From contig NC_022792.1 of NCBI RefSeq assembly GCF_000504085.1, forward strand, positions 1,640,001 to 1,704,000: 64,000 nucleotides of DNA, given 5' to 3'. Below are positions 2,868 through 18,951 of this stretch, piece after piece. The DNA comes from Pseudothermotoga elfii DSM 9442 = NBRC 107921. Lineage in GTDB: Bacteria; Thermotogota; Thermotogae; Thermotogales; DSM-5069. A program made the position numbers and the translations under genes. Each line of letters starts with the position of its first letter. The stretch's first letter is position 1. The notes under the pieces were generated by a model, which was not told the origin of the DNA, did not search any database, and was given only the letters and a program-made list of their open reading frames with translations.

Positions 2868-3523
2868 CTGGCATTCCCCCTTACAATGTAATCTACAACT
2901 GCGTGTGGTGTATGAATTTCATTTGGTGAAAGCCCTCCTACTGGAACGAATTCTTCAACTTCTACTATCGTAATCTTTCCAGCAAATGCCATCAATGGGT
3001 TGAAGTTTCTCGAAGTGAGATTGAAGAAAAGATTTCCATAGAAATCAGCTTTTTGAGCCTTTATCAGGGCAAAATCAGCCCTTAGGGCTGGCTCAACGAG
3101 ATATTCTTTATCGTCAATGACTATTTTTTGTTTTCCATTCTCAACAACTGTACCGACACCAGTAGGTGTCAGGATCCCGCCAAGGCCAAATCCACCTGCA
3201 CGAACTTTTTCAGCCAGTGTACCTTGCGGTACCAATTCCACTTCAAGAGTACCTTCGATCATCTGCTTTTGTGTTTCTGGATTTGTACCAATGTGCGAAA
3301 CAATCACTTTTTTCGCCATTTTATTGACTATCATCTTCCCGATGCCTTTGTCTGGAAAGGCTGTATCATTAGCGATGATGGTGAAGTTTCTTTTGCCACT
3401 TTTTACAAGAGCGTCAATGAGTAATTCAGGTGTGCCATCTCCAAGAAATCCACCAATCATCAGCACGGCACCATCTGGTATCATTTCAACGGCTCTTTCT
3501 ACTGTTATAACTTTGTTTTTCAC
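2864..3523 (-). CDS. atoD: 3-oxoacid/acetate CoA-transferase, alpha subunit
   Basis: Alpha subunit pairing with the adjacent beta subunit. The N-terminal [12 protein letters not shown] is the CoA-binding glycine loop of the family, and [25 protein letters not shown] is the long conserved motif of AtoD/ScoA proteins. I place the start at GTG 3523 (219 residues), nine bases after the AGGAGG site. The alternative GTG at 3532 abuts that same site too closely. It follows the thiolase gene by 12 bases and overlaps the beta subunit by four. With the thiolase it would turn acetoacetate plus acetyl-CoA into two acetyl-CoA, or run in reverse. Confidence 0.92.
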
Positions 3524-4754: not shown

Positions 4755-6083
4755 TTACAAAATGAGTATCAGCAAGCTTGTTACAACCCCACTCCATATC
4801 AAAGCCATTACGCAATACCCCATGATGTCTCTTATATCAAGTTTTGCAACTGAAAGTAGTGGCAAAGCCCAGAATGGCTGAATCATATTTGTCCATGCAT
4901 CGCCCCATGCAACACCCATAACAACCTTTGGTATAGAAGCGCCTATTTGCTGAGCTGCCTGCGTCATTATTGGACCCTGAACAGACCACTGACCTCCGCC
5001 TGATGGAACAAACAGATTTATCAAACCTGCACTCCAGTAAGAGAACAGAGGTAAAGTTCTTGCAGTGGAGAAAGAGGCAAACCAGTTTGCAATTGTTGCA
5101 GCAAGGCCAGAATTGATCATCATACCCATAATTCCTGCATAAAATGGAAATTGTATGACAACTCCCCAGACAGTTTTTCCAGCCTCGATCGCAGCATTTA
5201 TAAAATTCTTTGGTGTACCATGCAGCAATAACCCGATCATAAGAAAAATAAAGTTGAGTATATTCAAATCAAGAGAACCACCTTTTACAAAGAAGTAGTA
5301 AAAGATGTAAACCAGACCTATTAAACCTATGATCAAGGACAAAACAGGACTATTTTCCATCTTTTCAGCAGGTGTCATATCAGACCATTTTTTCTTTGCG
5401 ATTTCTTTTTTCTCGGCAAACACAGATGGATCTACTTCTATAACTTCTTCTTTTTTCGGATGCATTCCAGCCATGATGAATGGCAATGTGAAAAGCAATA
5501 CCAGGACAGGCACATAACCTACAGGAGAGAAAATTGTCTGCGAAACAGGTATCAGACCAATCTGCTTTTCCAAAAAGTGCCCTTTTGTATTAACCAGAAG
5601 TGGTGCAGATGCTGAAAGCCCGGCGTGCCATACAAGAAAGCCAGAATAAGCAGAAGCAACAAGCAGCGGATAGTGCAGGCCTTTCCCTTTCATATTTTTT
5701 GCTATTTCAATTGCCAGAAGCGATGTAAAGATCAAACCAAACCCCCAGTTCAAATAACTCGTGATGATCATAACCACACATGCCAGTGCAACAGCTTTAA
5801 ATGGTGTGTTGGCAGCTTTCGCAATCGTTCTTAAAATAGCTGCCATAGGTTTGGTCTGAGCCAGAATGTGTCCCGTCATGAGCACCAAGCACATCTGCAT
5901 TGCAAAAGAAAGTAAGTTCCAGAAACCATCGCCCATGTAACGAATCATGTCAATAGGGCTTTTGTGCTGGATAAGCATACCAAGCACAAAAGTTAGCAGC
6001 GTCAGAATAATAGCAAAAATCAGAGCATCAGGTAACCACTTTTTCGCAAACCTGGAAAAAGCACTACCCAGAACCCTAAGCAT
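4755..6083 (-). CDS. atoE: Short-chain fatty acid transporter, AtoE family
   Basis: A 442-residue inner-membrane permease with about ten to twelve hydrophobic segments, matching the AtoE/SCFA_trans family. Recognisable family stretches include LNWGFGLIFTSLLAIEIAK, HAGLSASAPLLVNTKGH and, near the C-terminus, FVPSGGGQWSVQGP. It probably carries acetoacetate, butyrate or related acids. It is the first gene of the operon, starting at ATG 6083 after GGAGGGTGA, with a sigma-A-like promoter 45 bases further upstream. The charged loop PKKEEVIEVDPSVFAEKKE around residues 205-225 is probably cytoplasmic. Confidence 0.92.
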   Translation of the reverse strand: MLRVLGSAFSRFAKKWLPDALIFAIILTLLTFVLGMLIQHKSPIDMIRYMGDGFWNLLSFAMQMCLVLMTGHILAQTKPMAAILRTIAKAANTPFKAVALACVVMIITSYLNWGFGLIFTSLLAIEIAKNMKGKGLHYPLLVASAYSGFLVWHAGLSASAPLLVNTKGHFLEKQIGLIPVSQTIFSPVGYVPVLVLLFTLPFIMAGMHPKKEEVIEVDPSVFAEKKEIAKKKWSDMTPAEKMENSPVLSLIIGLIGLVYIFYYFFVKGGSLDLNILNFIFLMIGLLLHGTPKNFINAAIEAGKTVWGVVIQFPFYAGIMGMMINSGLAATIANWFASFSTARTLPLFSYWSAGLINLFVPSGGGQWSVQGPIMTQAAQQIGASIPKVVMGVAWGDAWTNMIQPFWALPLLSVAKLDIRDIMGYCVMALIWSGVVTSLLILIL

Positions 6084-9683: not shown

Positions 9684-9759
9684 TCCGGCGTAGCTCAACC
9701 GGTAGAGCGGGTGGCTGTTAACCACTAGGTTGGGGGTTCGAGTCCCTCCGCCGGAGCCA
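9684..9759 (+). tRNA. tRNA-Asn (anticodon GTT)
   Basis: A 76-base cloverleaf with the CCA end encoded. The acceptor stem pairs TCCGGCG with CGCCGGA, with a G discriminator base. The D arm contains AGCTCAACCGGTAGAGC, the anticodon loop CTGTTAAC gives GTT, and the T arm has GGTTCGAGTCC. It sits immediately left of the restriction-modification island, a common place for insertions, but I see no repeat of its 3' end at the far side. Confidence 0.96.
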
Positions 9760-9848: not shown

Positions 9849-9913
9849 CTGTTTTGGATTGGCGATGAGACCCCCCACACCCGCCCTGAAAAGGAAAAAT
9901 TTTTGAAAAGGAA

Positions 9914-10058
9914 CTTGACTTTTTGATTTTCTTTGCTATATATTATTATGTGATGTTAAAAAATGATAAACTTTGACACGCACAAAAGGAGTTAAACCTA
10001 TGATGGAAGGTTTCTCTGAAATAATGACCCTTGAGGAGACCGCAAAATATTTAAAAAT
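9914..10058 (+). repeat. Left arm of a 145-bp inverted repeat flanking the defence island
   Basis: This segment reappears, inverted and without gaps, at 16893-17037. Identity is essentially complete from about 9937 onward and somewhat lower in the first 25 bases. It includes a promoter-like TTGACT plus TATATT stretch, the ribosome site AAAGGAG and the first 19 codons of the HTH gene. The sharp end of identity inside a coding sequence shows that the right copy arose by duplication and inversion. Confidence 0.93.
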
Positions 10059-10206
10059 AGGAAAATCTACTCTTTATAAAATGGCAAGGGAAGGAAAAAT
10101 CCCCGCCGTGAAAATTGCTAATCAATGGAGATTTAGAAAAGATGAAATTGATAAATGGTGGCGTGAAGTAAGAAATAAGGAAATTCTTACCTACAAAGAA
10201 AAATAA
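10000..10206 (+). CDS. Small excisionase-like HTH (MerR-superfamily, helix-turn-helix_17) protein
   Basis: A 68-residue DNA-binding protein. MTLEETAKYLKIGKSTLYKMAREGKIPAVKIANQWRF is the winged-helix module of the excisionase/HTH_17 family: helix, turn, recognition helix, then the KIPAxKIxNQWRF wing. Family members serve as phage excisionases or as small regulators and antitoxin-like partners. I use ATG 10000, eight bases after AAAGGAG; longer TTG starts lie upstream of that site. Its promoter and first 19 codons are duplicated in inverted orientation at the far end of the island. It may regulate or mobilise the restriction genes, but no integrase is present in the window. Confidence 0.82.
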   Translation: MMEGFSEIMTLEETAKYLKIGKSTLYKMAREGKIPAVKIANQWRFRKDEIDKWWREVRNKEILTYKEK

Positions 10207-10306: not shown

Positions 10307-10399
10307 TCACTATAACGTTTTGCGGATAAACGAAGGTTTGCGAAGCAAACTTTGGGCGAAGGGCTTTAGCCCGAAACCGTTTATCCGCTTGTTAAGTGA
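10307..10399. repeat. attC-like hairpin element 1
   Basis: Imperfect palindrome of about 93 bases. Outer boxes CACTATAAC and GTTAAGTG, inner arms GCGGATAAACG (10322-10332) and CGTTTATCCGC (10378-10388), and a central region with two smaller hairpins, including GGGCT/AGCCC at 10361-10372. Unpaired bases separate outer and inner boxes on one side (GTTTT against TT). This is the architecture of integron attC sites; the right outer box fits GTTRRRY, the left one only with a one-base bulge. It lies between the HTH gene and the end of the res gene. Confidence 0.55.
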
Positions 10400-10503
10400 C
10401 CGAGGCCTTATGGCCGAGGCAAGCAACCCAAAGGGTTGTGACGAGTCGGGGGCGTATGGCGTCTTTACTATCCTGTCACTTCTTATTTTCATAGGAGACC
10501 GCC
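10391..10503 (+). repeat. Left boundary repeat of the type III module
   Basis: GTTAAGTGA (10391-10399), TCGGGGGCGTATGGC (10446-10460) and GGAGACCGCC (10494-10503) occur in the same order, inverted, at 15079-15025 on the other side of the mod-res pair. The spacing between blocks differs between the two ends. The last block abuts the res stop codon. Confidence 0.75.
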
Positions 10504-13082
10504 TATTCATTTTCATTTTTTAAGACTGAAGCAATTTCTCCTAAATTTTCAAACTTATGTTTTTCAAATAATTCCTGATTTACTCTAAAGAATCTCCATG
10601 TTTCACCGGTTAAATTAGAAGCATCTTTACACCAGATTTTTGCTCTTTTATCCTTATGTTCAACATCTACATCCACTCTACCCTTCGTTTCAATTATTAT
10701 CTTCTCACCCCCATTGGTTTCCACAATAAAATCAGGATAATACAATCTCAAGTTGCCTTTTGAATCTCTATACTCAATAAAAAAGCCAATTTTAGGGATA
10801 ATTTTGCTGAATGCTCTTACATCATCAGCTCTATCCAGGAATTTAGCGAAATCCACTTCAAAATTGTTATCGCAGGGTACATAGTTAAATATGGACTTAT
10901 CCGCTGGATAAACCTGTTTTGACCATACAAAGGGCGGAGTATCAGAAAGTTTTATTGTATCCATTTTCTTGGGTTCTCTTTCAGAGAAGGTCATATCTTT
11001 AAATGTATCAACAAATAATTTTACGATTTTCTCCTGAACATCTGGACTGCTTAGCATATAAAGAACACGAGGATCATCTATATCAACCACAGTATCAAAC
11101 AGTTTTTCCTGAACATATTTTTTTACTATGGGATAGAAGCTTGCAAACGCTCCGCCAATCTTTAATTCTTTAAGTATTAAGTCAGTGTAATAGGCAATAA
11201 CGCTCTTTGCATCCTTGGGTACCGGTAAATTCCACCTTCTATTAATTCTTTCAACACCTTCAAGCATATCCACAGCGACATATTCCATTTCCAGCACTTT
11301 GTTTTCAAGATGAATTCCAAGAGATGACAGAGAATCAATATCTATAGAGTTTATATCAAATTCCCTTATGACAATTCTGGAACTGAGAATTGGAATTTCT
11401 ATGTCTTTGTCCAATTTATTTTCATCTACAAATATCGATGTCAAATTTAAAGATTTGTCCGTATCAAATTCTGCAAACTTTATACCTTCTTCCGCTTCTA
11501 AATCCTCAAGTATCTCTGTTAATCCGGGTGGACCAATAACTTCTAAGGTGTTTATTGAATGTTCAACATCTGCCGGTTCTTCAGGGAACATTTTTCTTAA
11601 ACCTCTCCCTATAACCTGTTCTGGTAAAACCTTTCTTTTTGAACCATACGGTCTCAGTCCAACAATAACATTTACATTTCTAACATCCCAACCCTCGTTC
11701 AACATCATTGTACTGACAATAGCTTCAATCCCTTCTGGAAAGAGTTTGTTAAGTTCTGGATCAGTTGCAATTTTTTCTGGCTCATCAATAAGCTTTGCAG
11801 CCTTTCTGGCAGGCTCAAGGTCTTTTTTCTGGATGTTTCCAGTGCTGTCAGTATGAATGAGCAAGACTTTTCCCTTAAGATCCGGTATTGAATTAATGTA
11901 CTCAAAAACTTCGTCGGATTCCTTGTTGCTTGAACACTGAATGAATAAGACAGGTATTTTAGAAAGAGGCTTCAACGCTTTTTTATATTCTCTCCATCTC
12001 CTTATTCCAGCGTCTATCCAAGCCCTATATCTTTCTACCGCCTTTTTAGATGCGATTTCTTCAGCATTCTTTACTATTCCTTTAAGCGGTAGCTTAACAA
12101 TGTTCATTTCTATGGCCTCTTTGAGCGAGAAATCTACTATTATCCACGGAAATAAAGCACCTGTTTCCGTTTTTGGTGTTGCAGAAAAATCAAGCTCCAT
12201 ATTGATACCTTTGCCAAACTGAGAAACAAGGTTCTTATGGAGATTCAGAAGGGTCTTTTTCCATGCCTTTTCAAAACTGTATATGTGGTGAGCCTCATCC
12301 TTTAAGATCATGATATTTGGGCATTTTGTAAGAACTTCCTTTATTCTGTTTTCCTGATAAATATCGTGCTTTTTCACTTCCTCAAGTACTAAAACATCAT
12401 CTACATATTCCTCAACTTCTTCCTTTTTGTTTTTTCTCTCCTCCAGTTGCTGAATATTTGTTAAAAATAAAACACTGTCAGGAATCACCTGGATTGGGTC
12501 TTCCTTCAAAATTACCTGTAAATCAAATTCTTCTTCCCATTCTGGTGGGATAAAAGGCCACTTTTTGAATATGGCACCATCTTTAAAATCTCTCTTTAAC
12601 CTATCATAGATAACATTTTTCTCGCCAGCAATTAAGAGGAACTTGGATGTATAATCTTCTTTGTTTTCCCATTTATGATTGAAATATGACCAGATGATAG
12701 CAAGAGCCATAACAAAAGTCTTTCCCGAGCCGGTTGCCATTTTAAAAGCGTACAGCGGATATTGGTCATAAGATGGGTCATAGGCCTGTATTGGTCCTGC
12801 TCCAAAATCCCTTGCCAGGTCTATAAAATTGCGTTTCTTCATAACTTCGTAAACATAAATAAGGGTTTCAATAGCTTCTCTCTGGCAGAACCAGAACTGG
12901 AACAATTCTCCATTCAGTTTGTGATCTTCCTCAAACCAGAATTGCAAAAGTCTTTTTGTAGTATCTGTTACACCGGGATAACCATCCTCACGCCATTTAT
13001 ACACCGCTTCTCTGAGTTCATTAACTAAATAAGCCCTGCTTGGCCTTCGCTCTGTAGGTTTTAATATATCGGTTGGATTCAT
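10503..13082 (-). CDS. res: Type III restriction enzyme, Res subunit (helicase-nuclease)
   Basis: Cuts unmodified DNA in complex with the Mod subunit after ATP-driven communication between sites. The 859-residue protein has the SF2 translocase core: Walker A KMATGSGKTF (about 115-123), DEAH box LKDEAHH (262-265), motif III FSATPK and motif VI VIGRGLRKM. At the C-terminus a PD-(D/E)xK nuclease is seen as PDF (783-785) and IIETKG (E798, K800). All key residues are present, so it should be active. Its ATG overlaps the mod stop by four bases. About 300 residues between the helicase core and the nuclease are family-typical but carry no motif that I recognise. Confidence 0.95.
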   Translation of the reverse strand: MNPTDILKPTERRPSRAYLVNELREAVYKWREDGYPGVTDTTKRLLQFWFEEDHKLNGELFQFWFCQREAIETLIYVYEVMKKRNFIDLARDFGAGPIQAYDPSYDQYPLYAFKMATGSGKTFVMALAIIWSYFNHKWENKEDYTSKFLLIAGEKNVIYDRLKRDFKDGAIFKKWPFIPPEWEEEFDLQVILKEDPIQVIPDSVLFLTNIQQLEERKNKKEEVEEYVDDVLVLEEVKKHDIYQENRIKEVLTKCPNIMILKDEAHHIYSFEKAWKKTLLNLHKNLVSQFGKGINMELDFSATPKTETGALFPWIIVDFSLKEAIEMNIVKLPLKGIVKNAEEIASKKAVERYRAWIDAGIRRWREYKKALKPLSKIPVLFIQCSSNKESDEVFEYINSIPDLKGKVLLIHTDSTGNIQKKDLEPARKAAKLIDEPEKIATDPELNKLFPEGIEAIVSTMMLNEGWDVRNVNVIVGLRPYGSKRKVLPEQVIGRGLRKMFPEEPADVEHSINTLEVIGPPGLTEILEDLEAEEGIKFAEFDTDKSLNLTSIFVDENKLDKDIEIPILSSRIVIREFDINSIDIDSLSSLGIHLENKVLEMEYVAVDMLEGVERINRRWNLPVPKDAKSVIAYYTDLILKELKIGGAFASFYPIVKKYVQEKLFDTVVDIDDPRVLYMLSSPDVQEKIVKLFVDTFKDMTFSEREPKKMDTIKLSDTPPFVWSKQVYPADKSIFNYVPCDNNFEVDFAKFLDRADDVRAFSKIIPKIGFFIEYRDSKGNLRLYYPDFIVETNGGEKIIIETKGRVDVDVEHKDKRAKIWCKDASNLTGETWRFFRVNQELFEKHKFENLGEIASVLKNENE

Positions 13083-14983
13083 TTTATCCTCACCTTCAAT
13101 ACTTTATTTGTATCTGTCCCAAATACATCTATAACCTTAACCATTATGGTGTATTCCCCGGGCTCATCATACCTGTGCTTTGCTTCGTACTCCACTCTTG
13201 GCTCTTTCTCCTTTCTGAAGCTCTGCCACTGATTGTGGAAGGTATCGCCCTTATAATCCCAATCTATCGCCCAGTAATCTATTAACTCACGAGAATCTTT
13301 TATCTTGTCTGCAATCTCTGCGAGTTCTGCCGTTGGCAGGAGCTGGAAATCGGTTATCTTTAACACAACTTCTCTGCCATTAACTTCCGTCTCTATTTCA
13401 AGATATGCCACTTCTGGGAATTTTATATGCGGAGCAAGTTCTTTTTCAACAACCTGATCTGGTATTTTTAGGAGTTGCAAATCAAAACCTACGAGGGCAG
13501 ACTTGATCTCATTCACAGATGGGATCTGAATAAGTCTTATATCAACGCCGTTTTTCTTTGCCAGTTCTTTGGCAAGTTCATTTACCTCATAACTCCACTC
13601 CCAGCCGAGGATGTCTGCTTTGTAGAAATTGTTAGCCCTGCACTCTAAAACCACTTTTTCAACCTCTTCCATTGTTACCGGTGCGTTCAGCGGTCCAACA
13701 TGAACGATTCTATCTCCTTTTCTCCCGTGCAAGTATCTGAAGCCATGTAGCGGCTGAGCCTGATAGAGCTTAAGCATAAAGGCAAGGTATTCATCTTCTC
13801 TGTCCTTCCAGTATATTGTCTCGTAGTTCCCTATATTCCACACCTCAAAGGGTCTTGCCGGCTTGCCATAGAGTTTCTTCTTCTTTTCATCATCATTCAA
13901 TAAGTCCTTTGAATTATGAATATCCAACAGCCTCTTTCTCGTTACCTGAATAGCGAATTTAGACAAATCACACCCAATCCACCGCCTGCCAAGTTTCTCT
14001 GCTACCGCTAAGGTTGTGCCAGAGCCACAGAAGAAATCTGCAACTATGTCACCGGGGTTGGATGCAGAAAGTATGATTCTTCTCAATAATTCTTCTGGTT
14101 TTTGGGTATCAAATCCTAAATATTCACTACTATGAGCTTTAGATACACTACTCTGACCAATAGTCCATACATCGTCTGCATATTTGTGTGTGAATAATTC
14201 ATATATGATATTGCCATTTTCATCTCTTGCAGCGACTATCTTGCTTTTTTCTTTATCCCAAACTCTTTTATCTCGTTTAATAGGCTTATCTAACGGTATT
14301 TTGATTCTATTAAGTTTTATTTCTAAAGTCTTGCTATAAACTAAAATTATATTATGGTTATTTGCGTATCTGTTTACATTTCCTTGAAAATTATCAGGAT
14401 AATACCAAACTATCTCATTCAGGAAATTCTCATACCCAAAGATCTCATCCATCATAACCTTAACATAATGACCTACATGTTCATCCAAATGAACCCATAT
14501 AGTCCCATTCTCTGCCAGAAGTTCCCTCATCAAAACCAATCTCTCATACATGTATTTGAGATAAGAGGCAATGCCACCGCTCCATGTGTCCCTGTATGCT
14601 CGCTCCTCAATTATGGAGGGTGCCTTTTCTATCTGCTCATCTCCCACCTTTGTTCTTATCGTGAAATCAGCACCTGTGAAAAACGGCGGGTCAATGTAGA
14701 TCAGATTTATCTTTCCAGCCCAACCTTGCTTAAGAAGTGAGGACATAACAAGTTTGTTATCTCCCCATATCAAGAGGTTTTTCCAGTCCTTTGGATAATT
14801 CTCTGGCCATTCTTTTTCTGGAAAAAGGAAACTTTGAACTTCTCCTTTGATTCTTGGCTTATTGATTGTTTCCACTACCTGGAAAGGAAGATTTGGCCTT
14901 TCAATTGGCATTTTATTGCCCAGTTCTATTTTCTCGTATTTTCCATACCAGAGGAGTTCTACATATTTTTTATTATTTGCCAT
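13079..14983 (-). CDS. mod: Type III DNA methyltransferase, Mod subunit
   Basis: Sets the recognition sequence and methylates adenine in one strand; needed for both modification and restriction. The beta-class order is visible: catalytic motif IV IDPPFFTG (about 97-104) precedes the AdoMet motif I DFFCGSGTT (near residue 318). The region between holds the target-recognition part. The last 90 residues end in an Ig/PKD-like strand-rich stretch (RYDEPGEYTIMVKVIDVFG). I start at ATG 14983, nine bases after GAGG; TTG at 14992 is less likely. First gene of the mod-res pair, and the pair is bounded by inverted repeats. Confidence 0.94.
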   Translation of the reverse strand: MANNKKYVELLWYGKYEKIELGNKMPIERPNLPFQVVETINKPRIKGEVQSFLFPEKEWPENYPKDWKNLLIWGDNKLVMSSLLKQGWAGKINLIYIDPPFFTGADFTIRTKVGDEQIEKAPSIIEERAYRDTWSGGIASYLKYMYERLVLMRELLAENGTIWVHLDEHVGHYVKVMMDEIFGYENFLNEIVWYYPDNFQGNVNRYANNHNIILVYSKTLEIKLNRIKIPLDKPIKRDKRVWDKEKSKIVAARDENGNIIYELFTHKYADDVWTIGQSSVSKAHSSEYLGFDTQKPEELLRRIILSASNPGDIVADFFCGSGTTLAVAEKLGRRWIGCDLSKFAIQVTRKRLLDIHNSKDLLNDDEKKKKLYGKPARPFEVWNIGNYETIYWKDREDEYLAFMLKLYQAQPLHGFRYLHGRKGDRIVHVGPLNAPVTMEEVEKVVLECRANNFYKADILGWEWSYEVNELAKELAKKNGVDIRLIQIPSVNEIKSALVGFDLQLLKIPDQVVEKELAPHIKFPEVAYLEIETEVNGREVVLKITDFQLLPTAELAEIADKIKDSRELIDYWAIDWDYKGDTFHNQWQSFRKEKEPRVEYEAKHRYDEPGEYTIMVKVIDVFGTDTNKVLKVRIK

Positions 14984-15024
14984 GATTACCAACCTCTTTC
15001 TGTTGTCTGATTAATTTCCATTAA

Positions 15025-15079
15025 GGCGGTCTCCTTATTTACTTTTTTCATAAGCCATACGCCCCCGATTTCACTTAAC
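15025..15079 (-). repeat. Right boundary repeat of the type III module
   Basis: Inverted counterpart of 10391-10503: GGCGGTCTCC (15025-15034), GCCATACGCCCCCGA (15054-15068) and TCACTTAAC (15071-15079). It lies just upstream of the mod gene and merges into hairpin element 2. Confidence 0.75.
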
Positions 15080-15160
15080 GTCCGGCGGGTATCTGAAGTC
15101 CAGCCATAGGCGATTTGGGTGAGGGCTGAAAGCCCGAACCAGATACCCGCTTGTTGTGCG
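15071..15160. repeat. attC-like hairpin element 2
   Basis: Inner arms GCGGGTATCTG (15085-15095) and CAGATACCCGC (15140-15150), outer boxes ACTTAAC (15073-15079, fits RYYYAAC) and GTTGTGC (15153-15159), and a central GGGCT/AGCCC hairpin (15123-15135). Size and plan match element 1, and the stem sequence is different, as between attC sites. The outer boxes are not complementary to each other; each instead matches the box across the neighbouring gene module. The stop codon of the HNH gene lies seven bases beyond. Confidence 0.55.
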
Positions 15161-15168
15161 ACGTGCTC
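15153..15168 (+). repeat. Left boundary repeat of the HNH module
   Basis: GTTGTGCGACGTGCTC here matches the reverse complement of 16792-16807 at 14 of 16 positions. The two copies enclose exactly the HNH-DGQHR gene, and the left copy reaches into its stop codon. Confidence 0.7.
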
Positions 15169-16771
15169 ATTCTTTAATCATCTCCATTAAGTTTATTGGA
15201 CGAGGCAAAACTTGATATCCTTGTGGAGTTTTTCCGGTCTCAAATATTGTTTGCCAGTACTCATAATTTTGTTTTCCACCAAAGACGGTATTGGATAATT
15301 CTTTGTTGACCCAGATCGGAAGATCTCTCAGATTCTTCACGAATATTTTTATTCTATCCCACAGTGGTTCAGGAAAACTATACTGAAACAGCTTGTTTTC
15401 ATCTATTGGTTTGCCCTGCATTATGAAGTAATTCTTTATTATCTGTGATATATATTTAAGCCAATTATATATAATTTCCTCCTTGCTCATCCTGTACGCT
15501 ATTAGATGTGGTTCTGGAATGTTTTCTCCTTTCTGAATTCTATTTTCTATTCTGTATGTACCTATATCTGGATCAAACCTGCCAATATAAATTTCTTCTG
15601 CAATGATATTCATCAGCTTAAGTATTTGTTGTTTTTCCAATTCTCTCGGATTTTCTCCTTCTTCTAATCTATAATTAATCGGAGTTTGTAATGCGTCTCG
15701 ATATATAAAAAATGAATAGAATGTCTTTTCTATAGTACTATATGACAATGGTTTCTCTTTTGCTCTACCCCCAAAATCTATAAAATCTTTAAGTTTATTT
15801 TCTGGATTATGTGTAATCCAGTCTCTTATTGAGTCCAGAATATATCTTTTCATCTCTCTAGATTCTCCCTTGAAATATTTAACCAAATCTGCTTCTGAAA
15901 AACTATAATCATCTTCTGCTAAGCCACGCTCTTTCTTATATCTTTCAACTCTTTCAATATATAACGCACTTCCAAGATGCCTCTGGACTGATTTGTCAAA
16001 AGCAACCTGTCTTAATGTCGTTCCTGCATTGGTGTTTGTAGTAAGGAGCACATCTAAATCTGGATCAATGAATACTCTAGCAGGTAATTCTCTTACACCC
16101 AGCAAGACTTGTGCCGCAGCCTTATGTTGTCCATCAAAAACTTTAACTTCCGAACTACTATCCTTTGACAATATATATCCTAAAGTCACATGGAGTTGGG
16201 GACGTTTTAAAAAGAATTCCTTAATTAACTTTGATATGTTTTTACCAATTGACCTTGGATTTATTCTCTCGTCATGGTGTAAATATTCAATCGGGAATGT
16301 ACCAAAAAAATATTTGAATCCGCTAAGCTTATCCTCAAATATTGGATATGAGTATATCGTGTTATCTCCTATTTCTGGGAATGAAAATTTTATGATGTTA
16401 CCTTCAATCTTAAATCTTAATTTGTATTTTGAACCACCATACTCCGCCAGAATATCACTCAGATTAGGAGCCGTTCCCTTCTCATTTATAGTAGTTTCTG
16501 AAATTTTTGAAAATTTATGGAGGATTCTTGCAATTCTCAAATCAGAATCTTGTTTCGATCTATTGCAGGATTGATGGGTTATGGCAAAATTAGATGAGTC
16601 ATCTTTACCACCTAATTTTAAGGGAATAACATGATCTATGTCTACCTGATGTATATCTAAATCTATCTCTTCACCACAAATAAAACATTTGTGGTTTTGA
16701 GCCTCCCATAGTTTTTTGACAAGTTCTTCTCGTTCATTTGGTGTTAGACGACTTAAATATAAAGATCCCAT
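15167..16771 (-). CDS. HNH endonuclease-DGQHR/ParB-like fusion, putative defence protein
   Basis: A 534-residue protein that I cannot assign to a named system. Residues 25-75 are an HNH nuclease: C29 and C32 (CFIC), DH at 46-47 (VDIDHVIPLKLGG), N61 and SCN at 68-70. Residues about 140-260 hold DGQHKAAAQVLLG (213 on) and RVFIDPD, a DGQHR/ParB-like motif known from DndB and related to the DGQQR motif of GmrSD DUF262 proteins. The C-terminal 270 residues are charged, helical and unassigned. A strong GGAGG precedes ATG 16771. It neighbours a type III system and is framed by its own inverted repeats. A nuclease against foreign or modified DNA is inferred. Confidence 0.7.
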   Translation of the reverse strand: MGSLYLSRLTPNEREELVKKLWEAQNHKCFICGEEIDLDIHQVDIDHVIPLKLGGKDDSSNFAITHQSCNRSKQDSDLRIARILHKFSKISETTINEKGTAPNLSDILAEYGGSKYKLRFKIEGNIIKFSFPEIGDNTIYSYPIFEDKLSGFKYFFGTFPIEYLHHDERINPRSIGKNISKLIKEFFLKRPQLHVTLGYILSKDSSSEVKVFDGQHKAAAQVLLGVRELPARVFIDPDLDVLLTTNTNAGTTLRQVAFDKSVQRHLGSALYIERVERYKKERGLAEDDYSFSEADLVKYFKGESREMKRYILDSIRDWITHNPENKLKDFIDFGGRAKEKPLSYSTIEKTFYSFFIYRDALQTPINYRLEEGENPRELEKQQILKLMNIIAEEIYIGRFDPDIGTYRIENRIQKGENIPEPHLIAYRMSKEEIIYNWLKYISQIIKNYFIMQGKPIDENKLFQYSFPEPLWDRIKIFVKNLRDLPIWVNKELSNTVFGGKQNYEYWQTIFETGKTPQGYQVLPRPINLMEMIKE

Positions 16772-16791: not shown

Positions 16792-16807
16792 AAGCATGTC
16801 GCACAAC
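16792..16807 (-). repeat. Right boundary repeat of the HNH module
   Basis: Inverted partner of 15153-15168, lying 20 bases upstream of the HNH start codon. It ends in GCACAAC, complementary to the GTTGTGC outer box of element 2. Confidence 0.7.
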
Positions 16808-16892: not shown

Positions 16893-17037
16893 ATTTTTAA
16901 ATATTTTGCGGTCTCCTCAAGGGTCATTATTTCAGAGAAACCTTCCATCATAGGTTTAACTCCTTTTGTGCGTGTCAAAGTTTATCATTTTTTAACATCA
17001 CATAATAATATATATCAAAGAAAAGCAAAGGGTCAAG
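16893..17037 (-). repeat. Right arm of the 145-bp inverted repeat
   Basis: Reverse complement of 9914-10058. At its outer end the promoter-like stretch CTTTTCTTTGATATATATTA occurs divergently: once reading into the island and once (17057-17082) reading out towards the nucleotidyltransferase gene. Confidence 0.92.
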
Positions 17038-17097
17038 TCAATTTTCAAAAAATTCTTGCTTTTCTTTGATATATATATTATGTAAGGAGAGGGAATC

Positions 17098-17952: not shown

Positions 17953-18843
17953 ATGGAGTTAAGACAACTTGGCGAAAAAGTATATTATATTCAGAATCCA
18001 GCAAATGTAGGTGTAATTAGAGATAGAAAAACAGCAATCCTTATAGACAGCGGATTGGACGACGACACAGCCAGAAAGATATTAAAAATCTTAGAAAGAG
18101 AAAATCTTTATCCTAAAGCAATAATAAACACACACTCTCACGCTGATCACTGTGGAGGCAATGCTCATCTGAAAGAAAAAACAGGATCAAAAATTTATGC
18201 TCCAGAAATTGAATCAGCCATAATAGAAAACCCTCTTTTAGAACCTTTGTATTTATTTTCAGGTGCAAACCCTATTATCAATTTGAAGAATAAATTTTTG
18301 ATGGCAAGATCATCAAAGGTTGATTATGTCATAAGAGATGGGAAAAAATTAGGCTTTGATGAAATCGAATTAGATATTGTTAATTTGCCAGGTCATTCTC
18401 CGAACCAAATTGGCATTGTTATTGATAACATTCTCTTTTGCGCAGATTCCGTTTTTTCTAAAGATATGCTAAGAAGGCATAGGCTTCCTTTTTATATTGA
18501 CATAGATGCTCAGAAAAAGACTTTGAATTTCCTTAAAGATAGTAGATACAAACTTTATGTACCAAGCCATGCAGAACCATTAGAGAATATTACAGAGCTA
18601 GTCGATATGACCTTAGAGATAATCAATGATGTTGAAGAATATCTTATCAGAACTACCAGAGAAAAGAAAACGACAGAACAAATTTTAAAAGACCTATGCT
18701 CCAACTACAGAATCAGAATAAAAGATGTTCAACACTACTATTTAATGAAAACGTTAGTAATGGCTTATCTTAGTTCATTGAATAATAGAAAAATTCTGGA
18801 TTTAACGATAGAAGATAATATGTTGCATTGGAGAAGAATATGA
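17953..18843 (+). CDS. Metallo-beta-lactamase-fold hydrolase
   Basis: A 296-residue MBL-fold enzyme. The metal motif is THSHADHCGG (H61, H63, D65, H66), with further ligands in LPGHSPNQ, FCADS and PSHAEP. The first 220 residues are the catalytic fold. The C-terminal 75 residues are a helical, winged-helix-like tail, as in glyoxalase II-like and quorum-lactonase-like proteins. It starts at ATG 17953 after GAGGTGG. It stands between two defence-type regions and ends 34 bases before hairpin element 3, so it may belong to the same modular array. The substrate cannot be deduced. Confidence 0.85.
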   Translation: MELRQLGEKVYYIQNPANVGVIRDRKTAILIDSGLDDDTARKILKILERENLYPKAIINTHSHADHCGGNAHLKEKTGSKIYAPEIESAIIENPLLEPLYLFSGANPIINLKNKFLMARSSKVDYVIRDGKKLGFDEIELDIVNLPGHSPNQIGIVIDNILFCADSVFSKDMLRRHRLPFYIDIDAQKKTLNFLKDSRYKLYVPSHAEPLENITELVDMTLEIINDVEEYLIRTTREKKTTEQILKDLCSNYRIRIKDVQHYYLMKTLVMAYLSSLNNRKILDLTIEDNMLHWRRI

Positions 18844-18877: not shown

Positions 18878-18951
18878 TCACTCTGTGGTATCTGAACTCG
18901 TCAAAGGCAATTTGAGCGAAGATTGAAAGCTCTGACCAGATCCCCACAACA
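18878..18951. repeat. Degenerate attC-like hairpin element 3
   Basis: Aligns by eye with element 2: GTGGTATCTGAACTC (18885-18899), a central GGCAATTTGAGCGA stretch matching GGCGATTTGGGTGA, then GACCAGATCCCCAC (18934-18947). The inner arms still pair imperfectly, but the outer GTT box is gone. It follows the MBL-fold gene as elements 1 and 2 follow res and HNH. Confidence 0.5.

Follow-up and report, generated by a model that had tools for sequence, protein, structure and literature searches.

Nucleases that join a DGQ-motif domain of the ParB/Srx superfamily to an HNH nuclease domain, namely GmrSD, SspE, DndI and BrxU (DUF262 plus a DUF1524 HNH domain), form a growing class of antiviral effectors and occur with restriction, BREX or phosphorothioate systems. 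In DndI, a nickase, both ATP hydrolysis and phage defence depend on the DGQQR motif (PMC11662687), BrxU has been placed with BREX (PMC8565348, PMC12839542), and ParB-HNH nucleases have been named auxiliary BREX effectors (PMC12839542). A 2025 PNAS survey describes an HNH domain (PF01844) fused to a ParB-CTPase fold in bacteria as a novel fusion (PMC12704722), the same general pairing as the one considered below, in passages that give no domain order, family or function.

The window, by which we mean the whole 64-kb stretch of the Pseudothermotoga elfii chromosome that was analysed, contains a gene that encodes both parts in a single polypeptide:

15167-16771, minus strand: open reading frame with an ATG start, 534 aa, HNH-ParB/Srx(DGQHK)-helical protein, with about 33 relatives in the same order
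16547-16687, minus strand: HNH domain, aa 29-75 (Pfam PF01844; column counts)
16007-16327, minus strand: ParB/Srx-fold domain, aa 149-255 (AlphaFold2 model, Foldseek, VIA)
16121-16135, minus strand: DGQHK motif, aa 213-217, invariant in 28 of 28 relatives
15170-16003, minus strand: C-terminal all-helical domain, aa 257-534 (AlphaFold2 model)

A preliminary description, made from the sequence, had placed an HNH core near residues 25-75 and DGQHKAAA from residue 213, and both are borne out. The core is complete and matches PF01844 over residues 29-75 (E=1.2e-8, 35.3 bits against a cut-off of 21.4), with HNH_5 and HNH_4 also above the Pfam cut-off, and the profile together with the catalytic His and Asn identifies an HNH endonuclease domain. 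All 26 of the 26 relatives compared keep D46, H47, N61, N70 and K73, while C29, C32, H66 and C69 are almost invariant, and residues 7-90 of the predicted model resemble T4 endonuclease VII, Cas9 HNH and similar HNH nucleases (Foldseek, VIA). DGQHKAAA spans residues 213-220. The HNH and DGQHK residues are unchanged in relatives at ∼50% overall identity, and such invariance argues that neither occurs by chance.

The same description regarded the order, HNH first and DGQH second, as an uncharacterised architecture with an unassigned C-terminal part, a view that is supported by the shared order in relatives and by the profile libraries tested, which match the HNH part only and hold no model for residues 98-534. 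No Pfam family scored above cut-off over residues 98-534 in this protein or in 27 relatives scanned singly, no convincing match outside the HNH part was found in NCBIfam, PADLOC or PHROGs (HNH-only matches, for example to Cas9, IscB and PtuB, were set aside), and a PDB sequence search with the core gave no match. Structure prediction, proposed in the earlier description as a check, yielded an AlphaFold2 model built with 29 sequences at a mean pLDDT of 89. Residues ∼149-255 of this model match 5k5a in Foldseek (E=4.7e-4) and, in VIA, PadC (6ryk; Z 7.8, rmsd 2.2 Å over 100 residues) and CDP-bound ParB (6sdk; Z 6.7), Z values for the ParB/Srx and HNH parts that the tool itself rates as middling. 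The match extends over the whole domain, is consistent with the motif, and is accompanied by many ParB and sulfiredoxin entries, so that the central DGQH part of the predicted structure is assigned to the ParB/Srx superfamily, with a nucleotide-site motif. Modelled alone, residues 257-534 are helical and confidently predicted (pLDDT 93.8, pTM 0.91); comparison of this predicted domain with the PDB returned no match (Foldseek best E=3.3, VIA best Z 4.8), which is an absence of match and does not prove a new fold.

Compared with GmrSD, SspE, DndI and BrxU, the protein differs in having its HNH domain first, in the type of that domain (CxxC-type, PF01844, rather than DUF1524), in carrying DGQHK instead of DGQQR, and in its ∼280-residue helical C-terminal domain. 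DUF262/GmrSD_N (PF03235) has no match in the protein or in the cores of 27 relatives. Membership of GmrSD (DUF262-DUF1524) was rejected on the missing PF03235 and DGQQR and on the N-terminal position of an HNH domain of PF01844/HNH_5/HNH_4 type. With DndB/DGQHR proteins (PF14072, TIGR03187) the protein shares a ParB/Srx-type DGQH domain and weak nearby profile similarity; it differs in the fused HNH domain and in K for R in 28 of 28 relatives. Neither PF14072 nor TIGR03187 matches the protein or the relatives scanned, and membership of DndB by profile was likewise rejected. The earlier comparison with the DGQHR of DndB and the DGQQR of GmrSD is corrected in that the motif is DGQHK throughout and lies outside the DndB and DUF262 profiles. 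In hhalign the motif region is nearest to DndB (P=2.3e-4, probability 45%, 50 columns; a weak match to a small DndB alignment) and farther from DUF262 (P=0.028, also weak). This proximity would suit a DndB-like protein that regulates or assists DNA modification and to which the HNH domain is an add-on, a reading that we consider highly improbable given the invariant HNH catalytic residues, the missing DndB profile match and the fact that, in the subset of neighbours of relatives that was read or scanned, no dnd gene was recognised.

The invariance of the catalytic residues and of DGQHK, and a predicted ParB/Srx fold situated between the nuclease and the helical domain, bear directly on the reading that we favour and consider reasonably probable: that of a single-protein, nucleotide-regulated HNH DNA restriction nuclease, similar to GmrSD, SspE, DndI and BrxU in reversed order, with DndI as the closest tested analogue. 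In this reading the N-terminal HNH domain would nick or cut DNA, and the central ParB/Srx domain would serve as the switch, binding a nucleotide at DGQHK and probably hydrolysing it. Recognition of DNA or of the trigger may fall to the helical C-terminal domain, which is conserved. Working beside restriction-modification or BREX-type systems, the protein would protect the cell from DNA of phages or plasmids.

The close relatives, at 43-91% identity, come from GTDB contigs, in which the core alignment picked out 28 loci, and from whole-genome profile searches, which added more. One lies on a viral contig (IMGVR_UViG_3300048599_000897), and matches in phages and plasmids were confined to the HNH domain. 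Hosts are found among Thermotogota, Chloroflexota, Pseudomonadota, Bacteroidota, Actinomycetota, Nitrospirota, Planctomycetota, Myxococcota, Bacillota and archaeal MAGs, with single host names uncertain, archaeal ones most of all, since MAG bins may contain foreign contigs. The family is rare: the centre genome aside, 397 genomes from the phylum of Acinetobacter contained 1 member and 399 Chloroflexota genomes contained 4 (1 of them distant). The gene was not found in three other genomes of the genus or elsewhere in the family searched, and phyla are intermixed on the tree of relatives. The mixed tree and the three congeneric genomes without the gene indicate that it moves horizontally, and its acquisition in this genome would be recent.

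Copies with an interrupted frame were observed at L016/L002 (G046) and L038, one of them in another Thermotogota genome, which suggests loss in some hosts. A distant relative (L067/L073; 492 aa, 25% identity) retains the order and the motif, and at L073 (9146-13210) it adjoins a gene for an AAA_21 (OLD-like) ATPase and a small gene. Separately, ORFs of ∼440-464 aa in other Thermotogae (L005-L008, L010, L011, L013; up to three copies in G041) match the HNH core only, at E of about 1e-4 to 1e-5, and are possibly IscB-like.

Restriction or defence genes adjoin 12 of the ∼33 close members, the window member included. BREX PglZ and BrxL are found at L021, a type I methyltransferase and restriction endonuclease at L026 and L029, a type I/II-like methyltransferase at L027, type IIG-like genes at L019 and L022, an Eco57I methyltransferase with a T5orf172 helicase at L039, a DruE/DpdE-like gene at L025, and a DrmD-like gene with an Eco57I-type methyltransferase at L043; TIR, Abi_2 and YhcG genes lie near L023. 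At L034 the gene is situated between the genes of a DUF499/DUF1156/PLD-helicase system itself, and at L036 between HmaA-like and HmaB-like genes. The co-occurrence with restriction, BREX or Dnd/Ssp genes that the preliminary description proposed to survey is thus recurrent for restriction, BREX and other defence genes, Druantia/DISARM-like loci among them, but neither dnd nor ssp genes were recognised in the subset of neighbours read or scanned. No restriction gene is visible at about 20 of the ∼33, some of them on short contigs. About half of the relatives stand alone among housekeeping genes, a placement that had been named as one that would speak against a defence role if it predominated, yet several of these are cassette insertions. 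The defence label is scattered rather than clustered on the tree. The one background that was measured is that of PF02384, which is matched about 98 times across some 65 Mb; against this, its presence within 10 kb of the gene in 2-3 of 20 genomes is a weak enrichment. The case for defence enrichment is accordingly a judgement that draws on how mixed the accompanying systems are, rather than a full statistic.

In six members of one clade, a small, conserved partner gene lies directly 3' of the gene. Its product, which starts with a coiled-coil-like part and also has a winged helix of Mrr_N type, may share in the recognition of DNA or trigger. The partner gene is present at L028 and L029 and at the following loci:

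L030, 11206-11757: Mrr_N partner gene
L031, 11203-11757: Mrr_N partner gene
L032, 1974-2498: Mrr_N partner gene
L043, 11228-11773: Mrr_N partner gene

These neighbourhoods admit two more specific accounts. A strict type IV enzyme, cutting only foreign DNA with modified bases or backbone and so backing up methyl-based systems, would be a narrower form of the restriction nuclease proposed above; it has the same two parts as GmrSD, SspE, DndI and BrxU and is placed with BREX as BrxU is (PMC8565348, PMC12839542), but no SRA or similar modification-reading domain was matched in Pfam, NCBIfam or PADLOC and the target is not readable from sequence, which leaves this account possible and somewhat doubtful. 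A back-up (abortive) effector, sensing that a neighbouring restriction or BREX system has failed or been inhibited and then damaging DNA, could explain why the gene accompanies so many unrelated modification systems and sometimes lies between their genes (L034, L036). It seems unlikely for a family that is also met alone in cassettes and between housekeeping genes.

In the window, the nuclease gene and its immediate neighbours are delimited by short sequences of a recognisable kind:

15073-15159, minus strand: attC-like site of the HNH cassette, with R'' GCACAAC, an 11-bp L stem GCGGGTATCTG/CAGATACCCGC and a downstream box GTTAAGT
16801-16807, minus strand: upstream cassette boundary GTTGTGC, complementary at 7/7 positions to the cassette's own R'' GCACAAC (inverted repeat I9/I25)
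10310-10397, minus strand: second attC-like site, behind res, with R'' ACTTAAC and 69% identity to the first site over 99 nt
13079-14992, minus strand: type III Mod methyltransferase of the neighbouring cassette (PF01555, E=6e-49; PADLOC MTase_III, E=2.4e-114)
10503-13082, minus strand: type III-like Res helicase-nuclease of the neighbouring cassette (PF04851, PF19778)

In the coding direction, from 15159 to 15073, the first site reads GCACAAC-AAG-CGGGTATCTG...CAGATACCCG-CCGGAC-GTTAAGT. Its score of 12, in a scan of our own rather than IntegronFinder, is reached by no other site in the 64 kb, and dinucleotide shuffles predict 0.013 such sites per 64 kb; as single-stranded DNA, both strands fold better than shuffles (z -2.8 and -3.4). 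The complementarity of boundary and R'' is as expected for a circular cassette inserted at G/TT. Inverted repeats framing the gene, which the preliminary description had reported as the gene's own, do exist (15153-15167/16793-16807, 15 nt, 93%, in addition to the stem inside 15073-15159), but their identity is corrected here: they are the two ends of a gene cassette of integron type. A terminal-inverted-repeat transposon was rejected, as no target duplication was seen at the repeat ends and there is no transposase, and as the logic of R'' and boundary suits cassettes for two adjoining units.

The second of these units is mod-res. The R'' behind res, ACTTAAC, is the exact complement (7/7) of the GTTAAGT boundary before mod, from which mod-res is taken to be the next cassette, with the two attC-like sites about 4.7 kb apart. 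Between 10310 and 15079 the two-gene type III system resembles one integron-type cassette of 4.7 kb, and a perfect 15-nt inverted repeat (10446-10460/15054-15068) is seen near its ends. Attachment sites recur at relatives: L018 has three attC sites in a row (3168-3216, 4886-4946, 5422-5480), L019 has one (11226-11283), and ahead of the L017 relative lies a site that is 67% identical to 15073-15159 over its full length. Archaeal integron cassettes, like bacterial ones, are reported to carry restriction genes (PMC9668308), which fits the cassette reading.

In all, the locus resembles integron gene cassettes and CALIN in the attC-like sites behind both the HNH gene and mod-res, in the 7/7 agreement of R'' and boundary at both, and in the attC settings of L018 and L019; it differs in the distance of about 4.7 kb between its two sites, in lying on a Thermotogota chromosome, and in that no integron integrase above the 265-bit cut-off for TIGR02249 was found in this genome, the best two pieces summing to ∼170 bits and looking Xer-like. 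Cassettes remote from an integrase, as CALIN or single insertions, are known, and the missing integrase thus does not rule out a cassette. In one part of the family, horizontal spread would take place as a mobile gene cassette. Single-gene insertions between housekeeping genes and a patchy, cross-domain distribution might also be expected of a selfish element whose HNH domain serves its own cassette as a nuclease for homing or insertion, but the cassette ends suit IntI-type recombination, which requires no cassette nuclease, many relatives lie within defence loci without cassette ends, and the large ParB/Srx and helical domains are conserved, all of which make this explanation very unlikely beside that of a restriction nuclease.

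Both cassettes are flanked by a longer repeat:

9897-10058, plus strand: arm 1 of a 162-nt inverted repeat that encloses the two cassettes, 95% complementary to 16893-17054
16893-17054, minus strand: arm 2 of the same repeat, 95% complementary to 9897-10058

Arm 1 adjoins a tRNA-Asn (9684-9759) and carries the 5' end of an intact 77-aa HTH ORF (9973-10206), labelled excisionase-like from reading the sequence; the copy in arm 2 is cut off at the cassette side and has no Pfam match. Between this truncated ORF and a nucleotidyltransferase gene (PF10706) lies an inverted repeat whose perfect 21-nt arms are spaced 27 nt apart (17008-17028/17056-17076). Behind an MBL-fold gene (17953-18843), a decayed attC-like sequence at 18887-18945 is 75% identical to 15073-15159 over 61 nt.

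With mod-res as a second cassette, the restriction adjacency in the window is probably a matter of cassette neighbourhood and not of one operon. The type III system had been described as lying beside the gene, and mod and res are indeed directly downstream; they belong, however, to a separate neighbouring cassette. A common operon was rejected, as the two nearest full-length mod homologues (G074, G064; Thermotogota, 75% identity) have unrelated upstream DNA and lack the HNH gene. The earlier term defence island proved too strong for a locus whose other neighbours checked encode an ABC transporter, an esterase, a short-chain fatty acid transporter, a nucleotidyltransferase, an MBL-fold protein and a methyltransferase.

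Taken more broadly, the relatives may constitute a new, unnamed one-protein defence family that moves between bacteria and archaea, in part on integron-type cassettes, and serves as an interchangeable nucleotide-gated nuclease in BREX, Hma, Druantia-like, DUF1156 and restriction loci, its C-terminal part being a sensor fold not seen in the PDB; we put this forward tentatively, at a little short of an even chance. The family arrives at the pairing of the ParB/Srx-HNH effectors through another order and other domains, and its different order, its presence in many phyla and its mobility on small cassettes make it a testable case of a portable effector common to many defence systems. The locus also presents a candidate cassette in a Thermotogota chromosome that consists of a type III restriction system of two genes, and its thermophilic source makes the protein well suited to biochemistry and structure determination. 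The scatter of close relatives over bacteria and archaea, and their frequent placement within known antiviral gene clusters, suggest that the protein may be a portable antiviral enzyme.
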